A stretch of DNA of 64,000 nucleotides. Origin: Gammaproteobacteria bacterium. GTDB taxonomy: Bacteria > Pseudomonadota > Gammaproteobacteria > Nitrosococcales > Methylophagaceae. The stretch is taken from the NCBI GenBank assembly GCA_029248745.1, contig JAQWIT010000008.1:124001-188000 (forward strand), in the 5' to 3' direction. Shown piece by piece: positions 30,807 to 64,000 of the stretch (its first letter is position 1; each line of letters starts with the position of its first letter). Below the pieces are notes generated by a model. The model was given only the letters and a program-made list of their open reading frames with translations, did not search any database and had not been told where the DNA came from. Position numbers and translations under genes: made by a program.

Positions 30807-31196
30807 CTAAGGAAAACAGGGACAGGGAGATAAGGGATAGCCGCGTAAACGTTGTTTTAAAAACAATTGGGTTGTCTGGTTATCAGTAAACACATTGCCT
30901 TGACTGAGTGTTGAAGCCATATGGCATCGACTCATCTCCATGACCTCTCGAAGCTGTACAAATCTCACAGTGCCTAGGCCGTGTTGTTGGCAGAACTGTT
31001 TTTTATCTGCGTCTGAGAGGGTTCTTAAACTGCCAAGTTGATCGAGCAGTTGGCATGCCAGTTGAACTGCTGATATTCCTGTGACGCCAGTATGCAAAAA
31101 GATAGCGAGTAACTCTGCATCAGATAAGACTGTTGCACCATATTGTAAAAATTTTTCTCTTGGCCGTTCATCTTTCGGCCAGTCTTTTATTGCCAT
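30807..31196 (-). pseudogene. radC: RadC/UPF0758, truncated N-terminal fragment
   Basis: Only the N-terminal half of a RadC-family protein remains (129 codons against about 224). The ATG at 31196 has GGAAAGGA 6 bp upstream. The expected N-terminal features are present: KDWPKDERPREK, LSDAELLAIFLHTG and the helix-hairpin-helix-like region. The reading frame leaves homology after FLKQRLRGYP and ends eight residues later, three bases before the thyA stop. The MPN/JAMM metal-binding domain is entirely lost, so the gene is probably dead. The breakpoint lies at a GGGACAGGGA sequence abutting thyA. Confidence 0.8.
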
Positions 31197-31341
31197 AGAG
31201 TATCCTTTCCATGGGTTATTTACTGCCATTTAATCCATTTAAATGGCCTATTTTCAGCGTGTCTGGTTTTAAGTTTATGATAGGGCTTTTTTGATAGAGT
31301 ACAATCTCCACTTCATATAGTCTAACAAGGGTTATTGAATC

Positions 31342-41106: not shown

Positions 41107-43491
41107 TCAGAATAAGTCTATGATGGGTTCGACGGTCGTACTGCCTTCTTGGTTGGTGGTGCTGAAGGTTTTACTGTACTCCAATGGGAGATAGTCACTT
41201 CTAAACGTCTCGTAGACCCCGTCTGTTCCGTTCCCTGCAAGGAGGCCTGTTTCTGGATCGATTTTGACGGTGACCATATCTTGAGGTTGTTCTAATAGTT
41301 GCTCGGGCACATCTTTAAGTGCTGCTTGCATAAAATCTATCCACATTGGAAGTGCAGCACGGCCTCCTGTTTCATAACGGCCGAGAGAGCGCGGTGAATC
41401 AAAGCCAACCCAGCTGATGGCGACGAGGTTGGGTGTGAACCCATTAAACCAGGCGTCGACTTGATCGTTGGTTGTGCCTGTTTTTCCCGCCAGATCATTT
41501 CGGCCAATTCGCATTGCATTTCGGCCTGTCCCGTGTTTGACAACATCACGTAGTAGACTATTCATGATGTAAGCATTTTGTGGTGTCATGATACGTTGTG
41601 CTGCTGGACGATCGTTTTCCAGTTCAATTTGAATGGGTTTGTCGCTTAAGCAATATGGACAAACGGTATCGGGAATAGCTTGCATTAATGTGGTGCCATT
41701 GACATCTTCGATGCGTTTGATGAGATAAGGTTCAACGCGGTATCCACCATTAGCCAGTGCGGCATAGGCGCGAGCCATATCCCATGGTGCAGCGCTACCA
41801 CTACCCAATGCGAGAGAAAGGTTACGCGGCATTTGATCAGGTTGGAAGCCGAAACGTGCGGCGTAATCGGTTGCAAAAGGGGCGGTGATATCACGTAACA
41901 ATCGGATAGAGACAAGGTTTCGAGAATGAGTAAGTGCTACTCTTAACCGTGTCGGACCATAAAATTTTCCACTATAGTTAGACGGTCGCCAAGTGTCTTC
42001 CAGACTCGGGTCGTCTAGCACGACAGGTGCATCATTAATAACTGAAGCAGGGGTATAACCTTTTTCTAATGCTGCTGAATAAAGAAAGGGTTTGAACCCA
42101 GAGCCTGGTTGTCGGCGTGATTGTGTGACGCGATTGAACTTGCTGTTGTAAAAATCAAAGCCGCCATTTAAGGCCGTTACAGCACCATCTTCAGGTTCTA
42201 AGGCTATTAAGGCGCCTTGGGCTTCAGGGAGTTGTGCTAATTGCCACTCACCGTCATTGTTTTGATAGAAATAATTAATGTCACCCAGTGAAAAAACATC
42301 AGCTACTTTCTTAGGTTTTTCCCCCATACTGTTGGTGCTAAGTTGTTTTCTAGCCCAAGCGATGTGTTTGAAAGGGATGTCCGTTAGGCCTTTATCTTTA
42401 ATGTGGACGACTGCGGTGTCCTTTTGGGTCTCAATGGTGAGACCTGGATGTAATGGACCAATATTGCTATTTCCCTCCAAGAGCATTTGCAGGTTTTCTT
42501 CTGTAATGATTTCAGGTAGCTGGACTTGCTTAAGCGGTCCGCGGTAGCCGTGACGATGATCATAGCTGATTAACGCTTTTTGTAATGCAGTGTTAGCAGC
42601 TTGTTGGTGTTTACTCTGAATGGTGGTGTAGACGTTTAATCCCATATTGTAGACGTCTTCACCATATTGCTGTGTTAATTGGGTACGAATCACTTCTGCT
42701 ACATAGGGTGCATGGACTTGAATTTCACGGCTGTGGTAACGGGCTGTGATGGGAAGTTCCATTGCATCTTTATAGTTTTGTTCAGAGATGTAACCTACTT
42801 CCCACATCCGGCGTAGCACATAATTTCTTCGTTGTAATGCACGTTCTGGGTTGGCGATGGGGTTAAATTTAGAGGGTGCCTTAGGTAAACCAGCGATCAT
42901 TGCTGCTTCAGCAAGGGTGAGTGTTTCCAGGGGTTTGCCATAATAGACTTTAGCTGTAGCACCTATGCCGTATGCGCGTTTTCCAAGGTAAATTTTATTA
43001 AGGTATAAAGTAATAATTTCTTCTTTACTGAGCACTTGTTCAATTTGGATTGCGAGAATGATTTCATTGAGCTTTCGTAAATATGTTTTTTCTGAACTTA
43101 AGAAAAAATTACGTGCTAATTGCATGGTAATGGTGCTGCCACCTTGTGCTTTTTTCCCTGTCATTACGAGGCTATAAGCTGCTCTAAGTAGCCCTTGATA
43201 ATCGACTCCAGGGTGCTCAAAGAAACGATCATCTTCAGATGCTAAAAAAGCATGAATGACCTTATCTGGAATGGTTTCGTACTGAACAGGAATACGTCTT
43301 TTATCGCCGAACTCAGCGATCAGTTTGTTTTCTGCACTATAAATTCTTAATGGTGTTTGAAGCTGAATTTCTTTTAGTGATTCGGTTGGCGGAAGTTGTG
43401 GTGCGAGTACGTAATAAATACTGACGCCGGCGATGATTGCCATTAAAAGAGCAATAAAAAGGAAGGCAAATAATTGTTTAATGTGACGTAG
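41107..43491 (-). CDS. mrcA: class A penicillin-binding protein 1A
   Basis: Bifunctional peptidoglycan synthase. The ATG at 43491 (794 residues) places the membrane anchor at about 5-30; a longer frame to 43554 is open but unlikely. The GT51 glycosyltransferase domain has ASEDDRFFEHPG and GGSTITMQLARN. The transpeptidase domain has the SxxK serine in PGSGFKPF, SRN, and KTG in LAGKTGTTND. The position upstream of the pil/aroK/aroB locus is the usual one for ponA/mrcA. Confidence 0.95.
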   Translation of the reverse strand, partial: LRHIKQLFAFLFIALLMAIIAGVSIYYVLAPQLPPTESLKEIQLQTPLRIYSAENKLIAEFGDKRRIPVQYETIPDKVIHAFLASEDDRFFEHPGVDYQGLLRAAYSLVMTGKKAQGGSTITMQLARNFFLSSEKTYLRKLNEIILAIQIEQVLSKEEIITLYLNKIYLGKRAYGIGATAKVYYGKPLETLTLAEAAMIAGLPKAPSKFNPIANPERALQRRNYVLRRMWEVGYISEQNYKDAMELPITARYHSREIQVHAPYVAEVIRTQLTQQYGEDVYNMGLNVYTTIQSKHQQAANTALQKALISYDHRHGYRGPLKQVQLPEIITEENLQMLLEGNSNIGPLHPGLTIETQKDTAVVHIKDKGLTDIPFKHIAWARKQLSTNSMGEKPKKVADVFSLGDINYFYQNNDGEWQLAQLPEAQGALIALEPEDGAVTALNGGFDFYNSKFNRVTQSRRQPGSGFKPFLYSAALEKGYTPASVINDAPVVLDDPSLEDTWRPSNYSGKFYGPTRLRVALTHSRNLVSIRLLRDITAPFATDYAARFGFQPDQMPRNLSLALGSGSAAPWDMARAYAALANGGYRVEPYLIKRIEDVNGTTLMQAIPDTVCPYCLSDKPIQIELENDRPAAQRIMTPQNAYIMNSLLRDVVKHGTGRNAMRIGRNDLAGKTGTTNDQVDAWFNGFTPNLVAISWVGFDSPRSLGRYETGGRAALPMWIDFMQAALKDVPEQLLEQPQDMVTVKIDPETGLLAGNGTDGVYETFRSDYLPLEYSKTFSTTNQEGSTTVEPIIDLF

Positions 43492-43694
43492 CATGAGGTT
43501 TTTATAAATGTTCGCTTGAAAATGGGCCGTCCAGTGGCTGTAAGTATATCCCACGAATTGGTTAAAACAGAACTAAAGAAATTTTAGGGCATGATATTGT
43601 TTTTAATAGAGACATGCACTATATTCTTAACAAACTACTTTAAGATGTAATTGTAATGTGTAGAGCGTTGCCATGTTATTTAGGAGTTAAGCAG

Positions 43695-44123
43695 TTGGTG
43701 TTTGGACAAAAATCCTCTTTGTTTTGGGATTGATATCAGTTCACCTGTGGTGAAAATGCTAAAAACTCGGCCAGGTAAATGGTAAGTATAGCGTTGAATC
43801 ATTTGCTGTTGAACCGTTACCACTTAATTCTGTTGTCGAAGGTCGAATCGAGAACGTAGAAGAAGTCGCCGGTGCGATCAAACGAGCAATTAAGAAATCT
43901 GGGGTGAAAGCTAAAGATGCGGCAATGGCTGTTTCTGTCAATTCAGCGATTACGAAAATCATTTTCTTTCCTGCCGATATGTCAGAGTCTGAGATGGAAG
44001 AACAAATCATGATGGAAGCAGATAACTGTATTCCTTATCCATTGGAAGAAGTTAGGTTAGATTCTGAGGTGGTAGGTTCTTAGTCTGCTGATCCTGAAGC
44101 GATGGAAGTGTTACTTGCAGTAT
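43695..44123 (+). pseudogene. pilM: type IV pilus assembly protein PilM, 5' remnant
   Basis: Degraded 5' part of pilM, whose product is the cytoplasmic actin-like protein of the type IV pilus alignment complex. Homology starts near a TTG/GTG at 43695-43698 (VFGQKSSLF), shifts frame to GIDISSPVVKMLK, shifts again at about 43790, and then runs openly through VESFAVEPLPLNSVVEGRI, MEEQIMMEADNCIPYPLEEV and RLDSEVVGS to a TAG at 44083, resuming with EAMEVLLAV. Homology ends at about 44123, where pilQ sequence begins. About 40 per cent of the gene remains. Confidence 0.85.
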
Positions 44124-44225
44124 CATTTAGGTCATTTGTTTAAAACGACAACGGGTCAAAATGACAAGGCGGAATTATTGATTTTTGTGATGCTTAAGAT
44201 CGTTAAAGAGAGTTTGAATTTTTAA
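44124..44225 (+). pseudogene. pilQ: PilQ secretin, last 33 codons
   Basis: Reads HLGHLFKTTTGQNDKAELLI then FVMLKIVKESLNF and stop. This is the C-terminal end of a PilQ secretin (usual form: GxLFKxxx...KxELLIFITPKIV). It directly follows the pilM remnant, so the remaining part of pilM, all of pilN, pilO and pilP, and almost all of pilQ are gone. Without the N-terminal 650 or more residues it cannot function. Confidence 0.82.
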
Positions 44226-44250: not shown

Positions 44251-44275
44251 GCCGGGCTTTAGCCCGGCCTTTTTG
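44251..44275 (+). terminator. rho-independent terminator of the former pil operon
   Basis: GCCGGGCT (44251-44258) pairs with AGCCCGGC (44261-44268) around a TT loop, followed by C and five T residues. A strong, undamaged intrinsic terminator 25 bp after the pilQ remnant and 33 bp before aroK, probably the original end of the pilMNOPQ transcript. Confidence 0.92.
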
Positions 44276-44307
44276 TTTATGCGGTTAAAAGTTGAGATAA
44301 TGCTGAA

Positions 44308-44829
44308 GTGATTACAAGTAATATTTTTCTTATTGGTCCGATGGGGGCTGGGAAGTCGACGGTGGGCAAGCAGTTGGCTAAGGCTTTAGGCCGTGATTTT
44401 TATGATACGGATAAAGAAATAGAACGGCGCACAGGCGTGTCGATTTCTTGGATCTTTGAAATGGAAGGTGAGTCAGGTTTTCGACAACGAGAACAAAAAG
44501 TTTTGGATGAGTTAAGCCAGCTTAAAAATATTGTTTTAGCCACGGGTGGTGGGATTGTGTTACCTGAAGAAAACCGCCGGATGTTGCGTTCACGTGGTTA
44601 TGTTGTGTATTTATCCACTTCTATTGAGCAGTTATTGCGAAGAACAAATAAGGATAAAAATAGGCCTTTGTTGCAGACGGATAATCCTAGAGAAACAGTC
44701 AAGGCATTGATGGCGGAACGAACACCGTTATATCAAGGGGTGGCAGATATTGAATTACGGACGGGCGAACAGTCTATACAATATGTTGTTTCAGGCTTGG
44801 TTAATCAATTAGAACAGATAGATCAATAA
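44308..44829 (+). CDS. aroK: shikimate kinase
   Basis: Phosphorylates shikimate with ATP in aromatic amino acid synthesis. The 173 residues have Walker [10 protein letters not shown] (about 8-16), [11 protein letters not shown], and the shikimate-binding LATGGGIV (about 78). It starts at a GTG. It keeps its usual place between the pil genes and aroB and is fully intact even though both flanks are decayed. Confidence 0.97.
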
Positions 44830-44837
44830 GGTTAATA

Positions 44838-45923
44838 ATGAAGACATTAACAGTCGCTTTGGGTGAGCGCACTTACCCTATTTACATTGGCTCAGACTTA
44901 CTGAACCAAGCTGGATTATTGTCACAGCATATTCAAGGTGATTCAGTCTGTATTGTCACTAATACCACGGTCTCACCACTTTATTTAGAACAGCTCATGT
45001 CGATATTATCAACGGATTTCAAATGTGAATCTGTCGTATTACCTGATGGTGAGGAGCACAAAAGTTTAGATGTGCTGAACCAGGTTTTTGACAAATTGTT
45101 AACATCACGATTTTCAAGACAAGTCACACTAATTGCTTTGGGCGGAGGCGTTATTGGCGATATGACTGGCTTTGCTGCTGCTTGTTATCAACGTGGTGTG
45201 CCTTTTATTCAGGTGCCGACAACATTATTAGCTCAAGTGGATTCTTCAGTGGGGGGAAAAACAGCAGTTAATCATGCATTAGGTAAAAATATGATTGGTG
45301 CTTTTTATCAGCCGCAATGTGTGCTTGCAGATACTGATACGCTGATGACTTTGGATGATCGTCAGTTATCTTCGGGTTTAGCCGAAGTTATTAAATATGG
45401 CTTGATTAATGACATTGATTTCTTTGAGTGGCTAGAAGAACATATCGAGGCATTGGTGGCCCGTGATCCTTTTGTATTGGCTGAAGCGATTGAACGTTCA
45501 TGTCAAGATAAAGCTAACATTGTGGCAGGGGATGAGCGAGAGCAGGGTGTGCGGGCGATACTTAATTTAGGCCATACATTTGGTCATGCGATTGAGACAG
45601 GTATGGGGTATGGTGAAATCATACATGGCGAAGCGGTCGCTATTGGAATGGTAATGGCTGCAGACTTATCGATGCGACATGGTTGGCTGGCTGAGTCTGA
45701 TGTAGTGAGAGCCAAAAAATTATTGCTTGCTGCCGGCCTTCCAATTGATACGCCAGAGGGTATGACTTCTGAGATGTTTATGAAATTGATGTCTGTTGAT
45801 AAGAAGGTGCAATCTGGTGTGATACGTTTGGTGCTATTAAAACAGCTTGGCCAAGCTTTTATCAGTGACGACTACGAATCAACTATGCTGGCTCAAACAT
45901 TAGCTCACTTTGAACACGGGTGA
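44838..45923 (+). CDS. aroB: 3-dehydroquinate synthase
   Basis: Converts DAHP to 3-dehydroquinate, the second shikimate step, using NAD and a divalent metal. The 361-residue protein shows [10 protein letters not shown] (about 74), [19 protein letters not shown] (about 103), and the metal-binding region [11 protein letters not shown] (about 239). It starts 8 bp after aroK and is followed by the damX remnant at 13 bp. Confidence 0.97.
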
Positions 45924-45936
45924 GGAGGAGCCCGAG

Positions 45937-47383
45937 ATGAGGGAATTGGTAACACCAACAAGTGATTCTGCCTATGTCACCAAGCTTGCTCTCCGTTCTA
46001 TCCCGTTTAATGACCAGGTTGATTCAAGCTTTTTCATGCAGGTGGCCAAGCAGGCCATCGCCTAAATTTATTACTTCACTTTGTTAGAGCGAGCAATAAA
46101 ATTGCCAACTTGGTTGCGGACAAAGGGTTTGGCAAGTCAACATTATTGACTGAACTTCAGCAAAGAACAGGTGATGAAATTCGACTGTGTTTTATTGATG
46201 CTCAGCAACATACAGTATTACCAGCCATTCTTGGGCAGTGCTTGGTTTGCCTAGGAGTCAGTAGTCATAAGATCGAAACAGCAGAATATCCTATTCAGGT
46301 CTTTAAACATCGATTAGCACAATTAAGACAGTCAAGTATTACGCCAGTTATGTTAATTGATAATGCAGAAGAGTTGAATGTGGCTTTGCGGACTGAATTA
46401 GCAAGGTGGTTATAATGGGAAGGGGAACAAGGCGCTTTATTACAAGCCGTTGTGGCATCGGTACGGCCATTTGTGTTACCTGGCCCGGCCCAAAATAGAT
46501 TACAGGCTGTTACGTTGCCAGCCTTATCAGGAAATGAATTATCATCCTATTTGATGCACCGTTTGATTGGCGTCGGTTTCCAAGGTGAGACCCTATTTTT
46601 AGAGAAAGACTTAAAGCAAATTTATCAACAATCGATGGGAAATCTTAATCTTGTCAATCAATTAGCACACTAGCAATTGCACGGTATTAAACTGGTTAAG
46701 CCGACTTTAGCGTTATTAGATAATTGGTTAGCTAAGACGACTATGCGTTGGCCAGGTTTAGCCGTTGTTGTTGTGACGTTACTGTTGTTGTTACTGTTTC
46801 AAGATACGATTAGTCAATAGTTAACGGAAGTATCCGATGAAGCTGCCATAGATGATGTCACAGAGATTATTGAGGAAGAGGCAGAGTTGCCTATTGTTGT
46901 GACGTAAGCTCAGGCAGAACGAGACGAATTAGCTGATTTAATTGCAGACATTCCTAATATTAATGAGCAGGAAGCCGCAGCGCTTGAATCGATTGATCTG
47001 AAAAAAAGAAGGAGCCGGTACAGCGTCCTGTTTTTGTCGCACCTGCTGAGCCGTTAGTGAGTGTGCCCGATTTTCTGAAACAGGATTGGTTAATGGCACA
47101 GCCAGTCAGCCATTATACATTCCAATTGATGGGGCCTTGGGCACGAGAGGAAGTGTACGATTTTATTGACCAGTATGCATTGGTCGGTGATGTGGCTGTT
47201 TTTGAACGCATGCGTAACGGCCAGGTATGGCATGTTTTAGTTTATGGGTCTTTTAAAGATAAACAAGCGGCTTTAAAAGCTAGTGCAGCTTGGCCACCAC
47301 CGTTGAATACCCTGCCATCGTGGTTGCGTAAAATGAGTAGTGTCCAACAGCAAATCAAAGATAAGGCTGTAATTTCTCAATAA
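45937..47383 (+). pseudogene. damX: DamX-like AAA/SPOR protein, multiply disrupted
   Basis: Remnant of the damX-type gene usual behind aroB. The ATG at 45937 has GGAGGAG upstream. An in-frame TAA at 46063 is followed by NLLLHFVRASNKIA and a degenerate Walker A (ADKGFGKST), then PVMLIDNAEEL and a TAA at 46413, a further segment ending at TAG 46671, a single membrane helix (PGLAVVVVTLLLLLLF) with a TAG at 46818, an acidic linker with a TAA at 46906, and a frameshift near the A run at about 47005. The last 108 codons form a SPOR domain (HYTFQLMGPWAREEV). SPOR proteins bind septal peptidoglycan. The 3' end overlaps the next gene on the other strand by 29 bp. Confidence 0.85.
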
Positions 47384-60111: not shown

Positions 60112-60573
60112 TTAACGGTGTTGTAGGATGAGCTCTTCGAGTTCATCTAGATTTGGGATATAGGCGATTTTATTGCCGATGTGGGTACGGCAATGTAAAT
60201 ACGCAGATGTTGCGGTATTATCATCGACTAATTTGAGTGCACTTTCATTAATATGAATTAATTGCGGCGAGCCATGGCAGGGCAAAGCATAAGCTTGTAG
60301 TTTGGTGTCAGGGTTTATACTGTGGGTGATGCATAGCTTATTGGCTTCTTTACTATGGCTGTCTTCGTTTTCTATTAGGTTTTCCAGATCAAGAATAGCT
60401 AATTGTTGAAATTGCCATTCATATTGACCGATATAGTAACTGGGCTTGTCTTCCGCGAGCGTGATTCTCGGCATGGGGATGACTTCAGCAATAGTGGTGT
60501 TTGGCAGTAAAAAATAGTGTTGTTGCAGTGGAATCAGCATGCAAGGAATGGGGTCAGTAGAAAGCTCAGCCAT
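60112..60573 (-). CDS. chpC: CheW-like adaptor of the Pil-Chp system
   Basis: 153-residue single CheW domain. It follows chpA by 26 bp and shows the CheW pattern: PCMLIPLQQHYFLLPNTTIAEVIPMP at the start and LAILDLENLI near residue 55. In pseudomonads chpC encodes the second CheW-type adaptor of the chemosensory system that controls type IV pili and cAMP. The name rests on the position after chpA; other CheW paralogues are possible. Confidence 0.78.
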   Translation of the reverse strand: MAELSTDPIPCMLIPLQQHYFLLPNTTIAEVIPMPRITLAEDKPSYYIGQYEWQFQQLAILDLENLIENEDSHSKEANKLCITHSINPDTKLQAYALPCHGSPQLIHINESALKLVDDNTATSAYLHCRTHIGNKIAYIPNLDELEELILQHR

Positions 60574-60599
60574 GTGGAATTCCTGAAAGTGTACTCAAG

Positions 60600-63500
60600 T
60601 TAATCATGCTCTGGGTATTTCGCACCCAATAAGTTTTGCAGTGTATCGACTAACTCACCTCCTTGATAGGGTTTACCAAGATATGCGTTGACACCAATAT
60701 TACGAGCACGGGTACGGTGTTTGTCCCCTGTTCGTGATGTGATCATGATAATAGGAATATCACTGAATTGTTCATCATTTCTAACCAATGTTGCAAACTC
60801 GAAACCATCCATTCTTGGCATTTCGACGTCAAGTAAAATAACATCTGGTACTTGTTCATTCAATAATGCAACTGCATCGATACCATCACGGGCAGTAGTG
60901 ACTTCAAAACCATGACGTTTTAACAAGTTGCGGGATGCTTTACGCATGGTGATCGAATCATCGACGACCATGGCAACGGGTAGACGGGTTTGGGTTGATT
61001 CCAATGTTGAAATAGCACTATTGAGTAAATTGTCTGCAGCAATCGTTTTATCGACGGTGTTAATGAGGGTCGGAATATCGAGTACAAAAACAACCTGTCC
61101 ATCGCGTAAAATCGTAGCGCCATTAATAGCTTCGATATGACCTAACTGTTCACCAACTGATTTCAAGACGATCTCGCGGCTGCTATTAATTGAATCGACA
61201 ACGAGTGCGACTTGTACTTCACTAGAGTTAAACAAGAGTAGTGGCTGTTGTGGTGGATGCTCATCTTGTAATCTAAAGGGCTGATTAAGCAAGCTTGCTA
61301 GGGCCATAAACTTATAATAGGTCCCATTGAACTCGTATCGCGCTTCATCCCCCTGAGCTAATAACTCTTTTACTTCTTTAATCGAGATCCGTTCAATCGC
61401 ACGAACTGAAGCAAGCGGTACAGCATATTGGTCATCTGCACAGCCGATGAGTAATGCCTGTATAACGGAGAGCGATAGAGGTAAGCGAATACTAAAACTT
61501 GAACCTTGTCCTGGCACGGATTGGATTGATAGTCGTCCTTTCAATGTCCTAATTTCACTGTTGACGACATCCATGCCAACACCACGCCCTACTGGTTGGG
61601 AAATATCATCTGCGGTACTAAAACCTGAATGCAAAATGAGCTGGATGAGTTCGTCATCACTTGGCATTTTATCTGGATTGATTAAGTTCTTAGCAAGCGC
61701 TTTCTCTCGAATTTTTTCAACGTCAATTCCATTACCGTCGTCTGATAAAGTGATCAAGATCTCTGAACCATCACTCGTAATAGTAAGCGTTAAATTCGCG
61801 ACGATATCTTTTCCTGCTTGTTTGCGTTCTTCCTCACTTTCGATACCGTGTGAAATGGCATTTCGGAGGATATGTTCAATGGGTGCAACGATGTGATCGA
61901 GAATGGTTCTATCGAGTTCTCTATCTGCACCGTAAACCATTAATTCAGATTTTTTACCAAGATCATCGTTGGTTTGTCTGACGATACGTTCGAAGCGAGG
62001 CACTAGTCCGCTGAAGGGGAGTAAGCGGGTGTTCATTAGGACTTGTTGAAGATCAGTACTGAGACGAGATTGTTGAATCAGAATGGTGTCAGATTCTATA
62101 AAGAGCCCTTCAATTGTACGGGTAATGTCGTGTAAGTCGGTGACACTTTCTGTTAAACCACGTGAAAGTTGCTGAATTTGTGAAAAGCGATCAAGTTCAA
62201 GCGGATCGAATTCTGACCTACTTTGGTTGGCAGTATCTTCATAGGGGAATAGGATTTGTGCTTCTGTTTCCATTTCTAATTTACACAGTTGATCTTGTAA
62301 GCGTTCAACTGTTGATTCCATTTCGCTTAGTTGCTGCCGCATAGCCGTATTTTGTTGGCTGACACGATCTCGTGAGATATTGATTTCGCCTGCGAAGTTG
62401 GTTAGGAAACCGAGGAGTTCGGCCTTAACCCTGACTTGTTCGTTGTTGCCGCTAGCTGGTTTACTACTTGTTGCTATTTGCTCAGCTTCAACAGGTGCAC
62501 TGATAGTTGGAATAAGTTGGGTAACATCAATTTCAGGGCTAGTTGATTCTACAGACTGGCCGTTGAATTGTTCTATCTCTGTAATGAGATCACTTGCAGA
62601 CATGATATTGTCACGTCGACTTAGTTGATCCTGCATATCTGCCAAGCGATCTCGGCATCGTTGTAATAGATTAAAGAATGCTTCGTTAGTGTCGCATTGA
62701 TTGTCACTGGCCATGATAGCGAGTGATTCTGTGTGATGCGTTAAATCGGCAATAGGCGTAATGGCTGTTAGACGGGAGCCATCTTTTAAGGTGTGGAGGT
62801 CGCGTTGTAATTGTAATGCGGCTTCGTCATCTTCCGGGTTTTGCTGCCATTGTTTTATGGCATTACCACTTGATTCCAATAGTTCTGCACATTCTTCTGT
62901 AAAGGTTTCTAGTAATTCATCATCTGTTTCGGGAATGATGAATGGACCACTATCGATGATGTTGTTATTAGTTTCAACGGTATCGGATGTGACTAAACGT
63001 ATGGTATGAAGCGTATCGAAATAGTGTTCGACTTGTGCTGAGAAGTCTTCAACATCCGAAGGATCTCGGTTATTCCTTAGATTCTCGACGATGTTATTGA
63101 CTTGTATGGAACCGGTGTCTATCAGCGACGAGACTGTTGAAGCAGATATATCTGCTTCTGCTGAAAGTCGAAACAGTGATTGATAGGCCTCTTTCAGCTC
63201 ATTGACATCGGCATACGCTGAGCTTTCGCTGAGCTTAGCGAGTGTGTATTTTATAGCCGATTTATAGTCTTCATCATGAGGTAATTGCTGAAGTTGTTGT
63301 CTTAACAGGTGATATTGTTCTAGTAATTCATCTGTTTCTTCTAGGAAGACAGATAATGTCTCAGGATCGATACGATGTGTTGGGTTGCTTTTTTCTATAG
63401 TTAATTCACTAAGCAGTGCGAATAAGTTTTCGGTTTGTTCTGAGGTATCTCTTTCTTCTAAGGCGTCATCGATTAAACTTTCAAAGTCGTTAAGCCATGT

Positions 63501-64000
63501 ATTCAGTGTATTTAGTTGAACTTCATTCAGCTGCACATTTTGTTGATAAAATTGGCGTAGCTTATCATCGAAGGTGATAGAAACATCTGAGATAGCGTTG
63601 ATTTCAACTATCGCTGCACAGCCTTTGATGGCATGGGTGATTTGAATAATTGCTTCACTTATATTGAAAGGTGCTGTTGCATTGGATAAGTGATCTTTGA
63701 ATGCACTGATATGGACAGACACTTCATCGCTAAAGATTTGGCGTAATTCATGATCTGTTGTTTCAGTATTTTCTGCTGCAGCTTCAGTTTCCGGGGAAAT
63801 GAGACTATTAATGGCAGTTTGTAATGCTTCGACCTCATTGTCTTCCGACATGTTACCTTGTGTAAAACGTGTCACTAAGGCGGGAATAAGTTGATGGCTT
63901 GATGAAACAAGTTCTTGGAAGGTAGTTGATGTTTCAATTTGATTATCAAGTGCGCGGTTAAGCAGGTCTTCGACAGACCAAGCTAATTCACCAATTTTGT
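60600..64000 (-). CDS. chpA: ChpA/PilL-type hybrid chemosensory histidine kinase, partial
   Basis: The open frame reaches the window edge, so the N-terminus is missing; 1,132 codons are visible. The edge segment IGELAWSVEDLLNRALDN is typical of ChpA. Hpt domains follow with phosphoryl sites in THAIKGCA and LHTLKDGSRL (the usual LKGGAR glycine is D here). Then come the kinase ATPase boxes (ILRNAISHGIE, LSDDGNGID, GRGVGMDVV), a CheW-like domain (SVIQALLIG) and a C-terminal receiver with VVDDS and phospho-acceptor in LLDVEMPRMDG. It resembles P. aeruginosa ChpA, with fewer visible Hpt domains. Acts upstream of pilus motors and adenylate cyclase in known systems. Confidence 0.9.
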   Translation of the reverse strand, partial: KIGELAWSVEDLLNRALDNQIETSTTFQELVSSSHQLIPALVTRFTQGNMSEDNEVEALQTAINSLISPETEAAAENTETTDHELRQIFSDEVSVHISAFKDHLSNATAPFNISEAIIQITHAIKGCAAIVEINAISDVSITFDDKLRQFYQQNVQLNEVQLNTLNTWLNDFESLIDDALEERDTSEQTENLFALLSELTIEKSNPTHRIDPETLSVFLEETDELLEQYHLLRQQLQQLPHDEDYKSAIKYTLAKLSESSAYADVNELKEAYQSLFRLSAEADISASTVSSLIDTGSIQVNNIVENLRNNRDPSDVEDFSAQVEHYFDTLHTIRLVTSDTVETNNNIIDSGPFIIPETDDELLETFTEECAELLESSGNAIKQWQQNPEDDEAALQLQRDLHTLKDGSRLTAITPIADLTHHTESLAIMASDNQCDTNEAFFNLLQRCRDRLADMQDQLSRRDNIMSASDLITEIEQFNGQSVESTSPEIDVTQLIPTISAPVEAEQIATSSKPASGNNEQVRVKAELLGFLTNFAGEINISRDRVSQQNTAMRQQLSEMESTVERLQDQLCKLEMETEAQILFPYEDTANQSRSEFDPLELDRFSQIQQLSRGLTESVTDLHDITRTIEGLFIESDTILIQQSRLSTDLQQVLMNTRLLPFSGLVPRFERIVRQTNDDLGKKSELMVYGADRELDRTILDHIVAPIEHILRNAISHGIESEEERKQAGKDIVANLTLTITSDGSEILITLSDDGNGIDVEKIREKALAKNLINPDKMPSDDELIQLILHSGFSTADDISQPVGRGVGMDVVNSEIRTLKGRLSIQSVPGQGSSFSIRLPLSLSVIQALLIGCADDQYAVPLASVRAIERISIKEVKELLAQGDEARYEFNGTYYKFMALASLLNQPFRLQDEHPPQQPLLLFNSSEVQVALVVDSINSSREIVLKSVGEQLGHIEAINGATILRDGQVVFVLDIPTLINTVDKTIAADNLLNSAISTLESTQTRLPVAMVVDDSITMRKASRNLLKRHGFEVTTARDGIDAVALLNEQVPDVILLDVEMPRMDGFEFATLVRNDEQFSDIPIIMITSRTGDKHRTRARNIGVNAYLGKPYQGGELVDTLQNLLGAKYPEHD

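Follow-up and report, generated by a model that had tools for sequence, protein, structure and literature searches.

The gene order mrcA-pilMNOPQ-aroK-aroB is described as general for the secretins of type IVa pili in the accessible part of PMC7545093. The locus studied here shares the neighbours, order and strands of the pilMNOPQ operon outlined there between mrcA/ponA and aroK-aroB, and pieces of PilM and PilQ can be recognised in it. Unlike that operon, it has lost pilNOP and most of pilQ to deletion and its pilM is broken, leaving a remnant. Among the methylotrophic Methylophilaceae, a series of progressively smaller genomes is reported to have lost pili, flagella and chemotaxis (PMC6794327, in the sections available). 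Our case resembles that series, as far as those sections describe it, in the graded genome sizes within one group, in an intermediate of about 1.7 Mb and in the loss of pili and motility, but it concerns another family and has visible scars, whereas the streamlined genomes there hold few pseudogenes. To judge by our reading of window genes and by a 73% AroB match to a Methylophaga MAG (L004), the genome studied here may be that of a methylotroph close to Methylophaga. In Pseudomonas aeruginosa, the Pil-Chp system controls type IV pili and increases cAMP levels, according to the excerpted text of PMC12632253. The genome studied here has PilG, PilH, PilI, PilJ, ChpA and a ChpC-like protein with the expected domains, yet unlike the P. 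aeruginosa system they stand without a pilus machine. In the literature searched, to the extent that its texts were accessible, we recognised no paper describing this genome or its scars.

Stepwise reductive loss by deletion and pseudogene decay is a well-known principle, of which the scar is an ordinary product. It is almost certain, in our judgement, that the feature is a pseudogene scar of pilMNOPQ and that it marks one stage in the disappearance of the whole pilus machinery from this genome.

The remnant between mrcA and aroK

The window is the whole stretch of 64,000 nucleotides that was analysed (G000:C12:124001-188000); G000, the genome carrying it, is a draft assembly of 20 contigs and 1.73 Mb with a completeness rating of 99.99%. 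The features, in window coordinates, are as follows.

41107..43554, minus strand: mrcA (penicillin-binding protein 1A), intact divergent neighbour; ORF of 815 aa, 85% identical to that of relative G012 over 815 residues
43698..44125, plus strand: pilM relic, first ~149 codons, with two 1-base insertions, one 3-base deletion and one TAG
44081..44083, plus strand: the TAG in frame within the pilM relic, at the end of a 59-aa frame (nucleotide alignment)
44123..44126, plus strand: deletion junction pilM'/'pilQ, ambiguous over CA at 44124-44125
44124..44225, plus strand: pilQ relic, last 33 codons and stop (tblastn)
44251..44268, plus strand: pilQ terminator hairpin, intact, followed by CTTTTTG; a hairpin in the same place in 17/17 genomes displayed (by eye)
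44308..44829, plus strand: aroK, intact (ORF, homology)
44838..45923, plus strand: aroB, intact (ORF, homology)
60112..64000, minus strand: in-window part of the Pil-Chp cluster (chpC-like gene and 3' part of chpA), intact

The true start of mrcA may sit further inside its ORF. In the list of open reading frames, the interval between mrcA and aroK holds no long open frame. The preliminary description had read it as about 430 bp of frameshifted pilM joined at about 44123/44124 to 102 bp of the pilQ 3' end, and the tblastn search it proposed, made with G012 proteins, bears this out: PilM residues 29-149 match window positions 43763-44125 (82.6% identity, E 4e-60) and PilQ residues 681-713 match 44124-44222 (75.8% identity, E 2e-8), while PilN, PilO and PilP have no match in the window at E 0.01. 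In the G012 reference locus used for the pilM-pilQ alignment (L145), PilM and PilQ are named by NCBIfam; PilN, PilO and PilP, which have no NCBIfam match, are named by position and size. The Pfam PilM_2 profile also matches the pilM relic, with 124 bits and two stops within the match. The scar combines pilM and pilQ homology in the syntenic place with a reading frame disrupted by two 1-base insertions and a TAG. In the nucleotide alignment with G012, the 1-base insertions, together with a 3-base deletion, lie close to the start of pilM; the relic begins with GTG, where G012 has ATG, and the frame from this GTG at 43698 closes after 11 codons.

By blastn against L145, positions 43400-44125 of the window align with pilM and 44125 onward with pilQ, and L145 7741-12135 has no counterpart. 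These 4,395 bases comprise the rest of pilM, all of pilNOP and most of pilQ, so that the internal deletion proposed earlier is upheld by the comparison with relatives while its size, put at about 4 kb, becomes 4.4 kb. PilM ends at codon TCA (44123-44125) and pilQ resumes at CAT (44124-44126); the CA at 44124-44125 could come from either side, and within this 2-base overlap the join was placed correctly. Aligning the locus with relatives, as had been suggested, located the deletion ends and revealed no microhomology beyond the two ambiguous bases, a weak test given that G012, about 80% identical, is a proxy and not the true ancestor. The longest word shared within 60 nt of both ends in G012 measures 6, a length reached by 96.5% of random pairs. 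As far as this proxy ancestor tells, the deletion would have been driven by no long repeat. The terminator, described as undamaged, is indeed so: its hairpin, GCCGGGC-TTTA-GCCCGGC, has 7/7 G-C pairs and a loop of 4.

The point decay of pilM, another earlier claim, is visible not only in the insertions and the TAG but also in a loss of codon-position bias. In 121 pilM codons, the G000 branch carries 6, 9 and 6 changes at codon positions 1, 2 and 3, compared with 2, 0 and 9 on the G012 branch. Pooled as positions 1+2 versus 3, the relic gives 15:6, a small sample of 21 changes, against 140:169 in five intact control genes (mrcA, aroK, aroB, slt and a 430-aa neighbour; Fisher p 0.024) and 2:9 on the G012 branch (p 0.008). 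Second positions take 9/21 of the changes in the relic and 42/309 in the intact genes (p 0.002). Changes therefore no longer favour third codon positions, which indicates that the pilM relic evolves as a pseudogene. The excess in the relic, about 13 changes over 242 first and second positions, amounts to some 5% divergence, and synonymous divergence between G000 and G012 is near saturation; from these figures, the onset of decay can be roughly estimated as recent.

Some further observations concern the surroundings. A GATAAT-like box at window 44296-44308, 6 bases before the aroK GTG, was seen by eye in G000 and several relatives and is absent from the promoter scan; it looks as if aroK had its own, almost leaderless promoter. 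The gene after aroB (window 45937-47374), which we take to be damX-like, partly from its position, has a frameshift and stops, and measures 473-485 aa in four relatives. Beside a thymidylate synthase-like gene, a frame at window 30807-31229, presumably radC-like, looks truncated, with its last part out of frame. Two intervals in otherwise densely coding surroundings, 324-745 (422 bases) and 1640-2315 (676 bases), contain no frame of 95 aa.

Losses across the genome and the genus

The earlier reading confined the loss of the alignment subcomplex and the secretin to this locus; the loss at the locus stands, but in G000 it is genome-wide. The search for other pilQ, pilB, pilT and pilA copies that had been proposed found no secretin, no PilC/T2SSF match and no pilin in the whole genome (the best match to N_methyl, the pilin N-terminal motif, stays below cut-off at 14.9 bits), and T2SSE matches only pieces of pilT-like genes. 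Of the components of a functional type IVa pilus, secretin, PilC, assembly ATPase and pilin are missing and PilD is present. With the secretin and the alignment proteins gone, pilus assembly from the pilMNOPQ locus is impossible.

Similar scars occur at other loci. The pilB-pilC locus lacks 5.8 kb: ~45 codons from the beginning of pilB are fused in frame to ~60 codons from the end of a GGDEF-EAL gene. This fusion is an open 104-codon frame (L197 9204-9518, minus strand) ahead of the prepilin peptidase gene pilD, which is itself an intact 289-aa frame with Pfam A24 domains. At an msh-type locus, the head of a PilM-like (mshI-like) gene, about 190 codons, is joined to the final ~23 codons of the last gene, with 1.9 kb missing. 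At the pilT-pilU locus, 23 pilT codons remain and pilU was not found in a 10 kb stretch. Three further pilT-like genes are broken, one frameshifted (L154), another frameshifted and a third headless (both L155). For the msh-type ATPase and pilin locus of G012 (L158), absence from G000 rests on the genome-wide profile searches. All four operons (pilMNOPQ, pilB-pilC, msh-type and pilT-pilU) keep the head of their first gene. These heads may have been retained because the divergent upstream neighbours, mrcA and the genes that we take to be lysA-like and yggS-like, need the shared region.

The aroK locus was found in 28 of the 29 genus genomes searched, G003 being the only one without it. That the interval usually carries pilMNOPQ, as the preliminary description assumed, agrees with the position of the pilQ 3' end, which directly precedes aroK in 25 of the 28, the contig cutting off the front of pilQ in some. 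The exceptions are G000, which keeps only the 33-codon tail, and G018 and G022, in which mrcA adjoins aroK instead of pilQ. The whole operon is present in six of eight relatives' loci examined (G012, G010, G016, G042, G043 and G011, not G018 and G022). Secretin profiles match 25 of the 29 genomes, those without a match being G000, G018, G022 and G003, an assembly of 260 contigs with pilM at a contig end.

No trace of pilM remains in G018 and G022, where the region upstream of mrcA leads straight into the last pilQ bases and the terminator; the hairpin ahead of aroK was spared in this loss as well as in that of G000. A FastTree tree was built from concatenated proteins (mostly AroK and AroB only, more genes for ten genomes) and rooted on two distant outgroups with partial data. 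In it, G012 and G003 cluster with G000 (support 1.0), and G010 clusters (0.992) with the pair of G018 and G022 (1.0). Because G012 and G010 are intact, this grouping implies that pilMNOPQ was lost at least twice: G018 and G022 lost it separately from G000, by a different deletion.

Alternative explanations and the course of the loss

A pilus-less ancestor common to G000, G018 and G022 would account for the small genomes of all three, none of which has a full PilM, a secretin or intact T2SSE motors. However, such an ancestor is contradicted by the placement of G012 and G003 with G000 and of G010 with the other two, since G012 and G010 have whole operons. The pilM sequence still seen in G000 is, moreover, gone from G018 and G022. 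We rejected a shared ancestral loss on the strength of the tree and of the differing breakpoints, and regard it as very improbable. The remnant might instead still encode a short functional product, either a chimera of the pilM and pilQ pieces or a small protein translated from the frame of 59 aa at 43904-44083. That frame does exist, and the 33 codons of the pilQ tail can be read without a stop, but two frameshifts and the TAG break any chimera, and the codon-position bias is lost in the pilM part. A relative sharing the short frame would have spoken for function, but the pilM'-'pilQ join is absent from all 27 other genomes with the aroK locus. On these grounds, a functional product was rejected and has hardly any probability left.

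An operon present in the organism and collapsed by an assembly or binning error is equally hard to credit. G000 is a draft of 20 contigs, in which a gene lying in a gap could escape, but the scars examined are all contig-internal. The pilM stub has point lesions of its own, like scars lie on several other contigs, and the whole-genome secretin and T2SSF searches are empty. Furthermore, a collapse requires repeats, and the ends in G012 share no word longer than expected by chance; we rejected this explanation too.

On the favoured reading, a pseudogene scar, the ancestor had divergent mrcA followed by pilMNOPQ, aroK and aroB, as in nearly all relatives. The 4.4 kb removed, in one event or several nested ones, lay between codon ~149 of pilM and codon ~680 of pilQ; the flanks were presumably indispensable, with the start region of divergent mrcA on the left and the terminator and aroK start on the right. 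The pilM stub has been decaying neutrally, its point decay beginning before or after the deletion, and the reduction as a whole may reflect relaxed selection on surface motility or adhesion. The intact pilD and Chp genes count against this reading, being unlike a uniformly decayed pilus system.

The Pil-Chp cluster and the meaning of the scar

The Pil-Chp cluster continues beyond the window to about 68961 (window coordinates; L153) with pilJ, pilI, pilH and pilG. A ChpA-type kinase stands together with PilJ, PilI, PilG, PilH and a ChpC-like CheW protein. ChpA, 1,868 aa long, combines Hpt, HATPase, CheW and receiver domains; no other CheA-type match at 1e-40 was found in G000, whereas many relatives have further ones. 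With no pilus machine found in the genome, control of type IV pili by this system is presumably impossible. The six open Chp genes (about 2,900 codons) contain neither frameshift nor stop, and their changes on the G000 branch, 217:218 for positions 1+2 versus 3 against 140:169 in the control genes (p 0.23), give no clear sign of relaxation. Taken singly, pilG changed more on the G000 branch, with 9, 11 and 18 changes at codon positions 1, 2 and 3, compared with 4, 0 and 8 in G012.

Since ChpA is the only CheA-type kinase found and pili are gone, the cluster might be a kept orphan, maintained for a pilus-independent output (cAMP or another regulator). Unbroken genes with a codon-position ratio like that of intact genes argue against a simple lag in decay. 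Against a lasting function, the same genes are loose, partly deleted or broken in the pilus-less G018 and G022, and judging from these sequence comparisons we consider a kept orphan unlikely. G018 has a shortened, frameshifted chpA and a broken chpC, and has lost pilG/pilH; G022 has a chpA cut down to 744 aa and no chpC, and its contig ends before pilG/pilH. Their dN/dS values are 0.30 for PilJ, 0.26 for PilI and 0.41 for ChpA, as against 0.05-0.16 for aroK, aroB, mrcA and slt (values for 'pilG' in these two genomes, which are cross-matches to the ChpA receiver domain, were left out). The order of loss that this suggests is the pilus machine first, and the chemosensory controller and peptidase later.

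On a practical matter, the locus is a warning that PilM or PilQ matches upstream of aroK can be remnants. The scar itself is a clean, readable intermediate stage on the way to losing a large surface machine, and one genus spans a graded series from intact genomes through the readable scars of G000 to G018 and G022, in which the operon is erased to its terminator.
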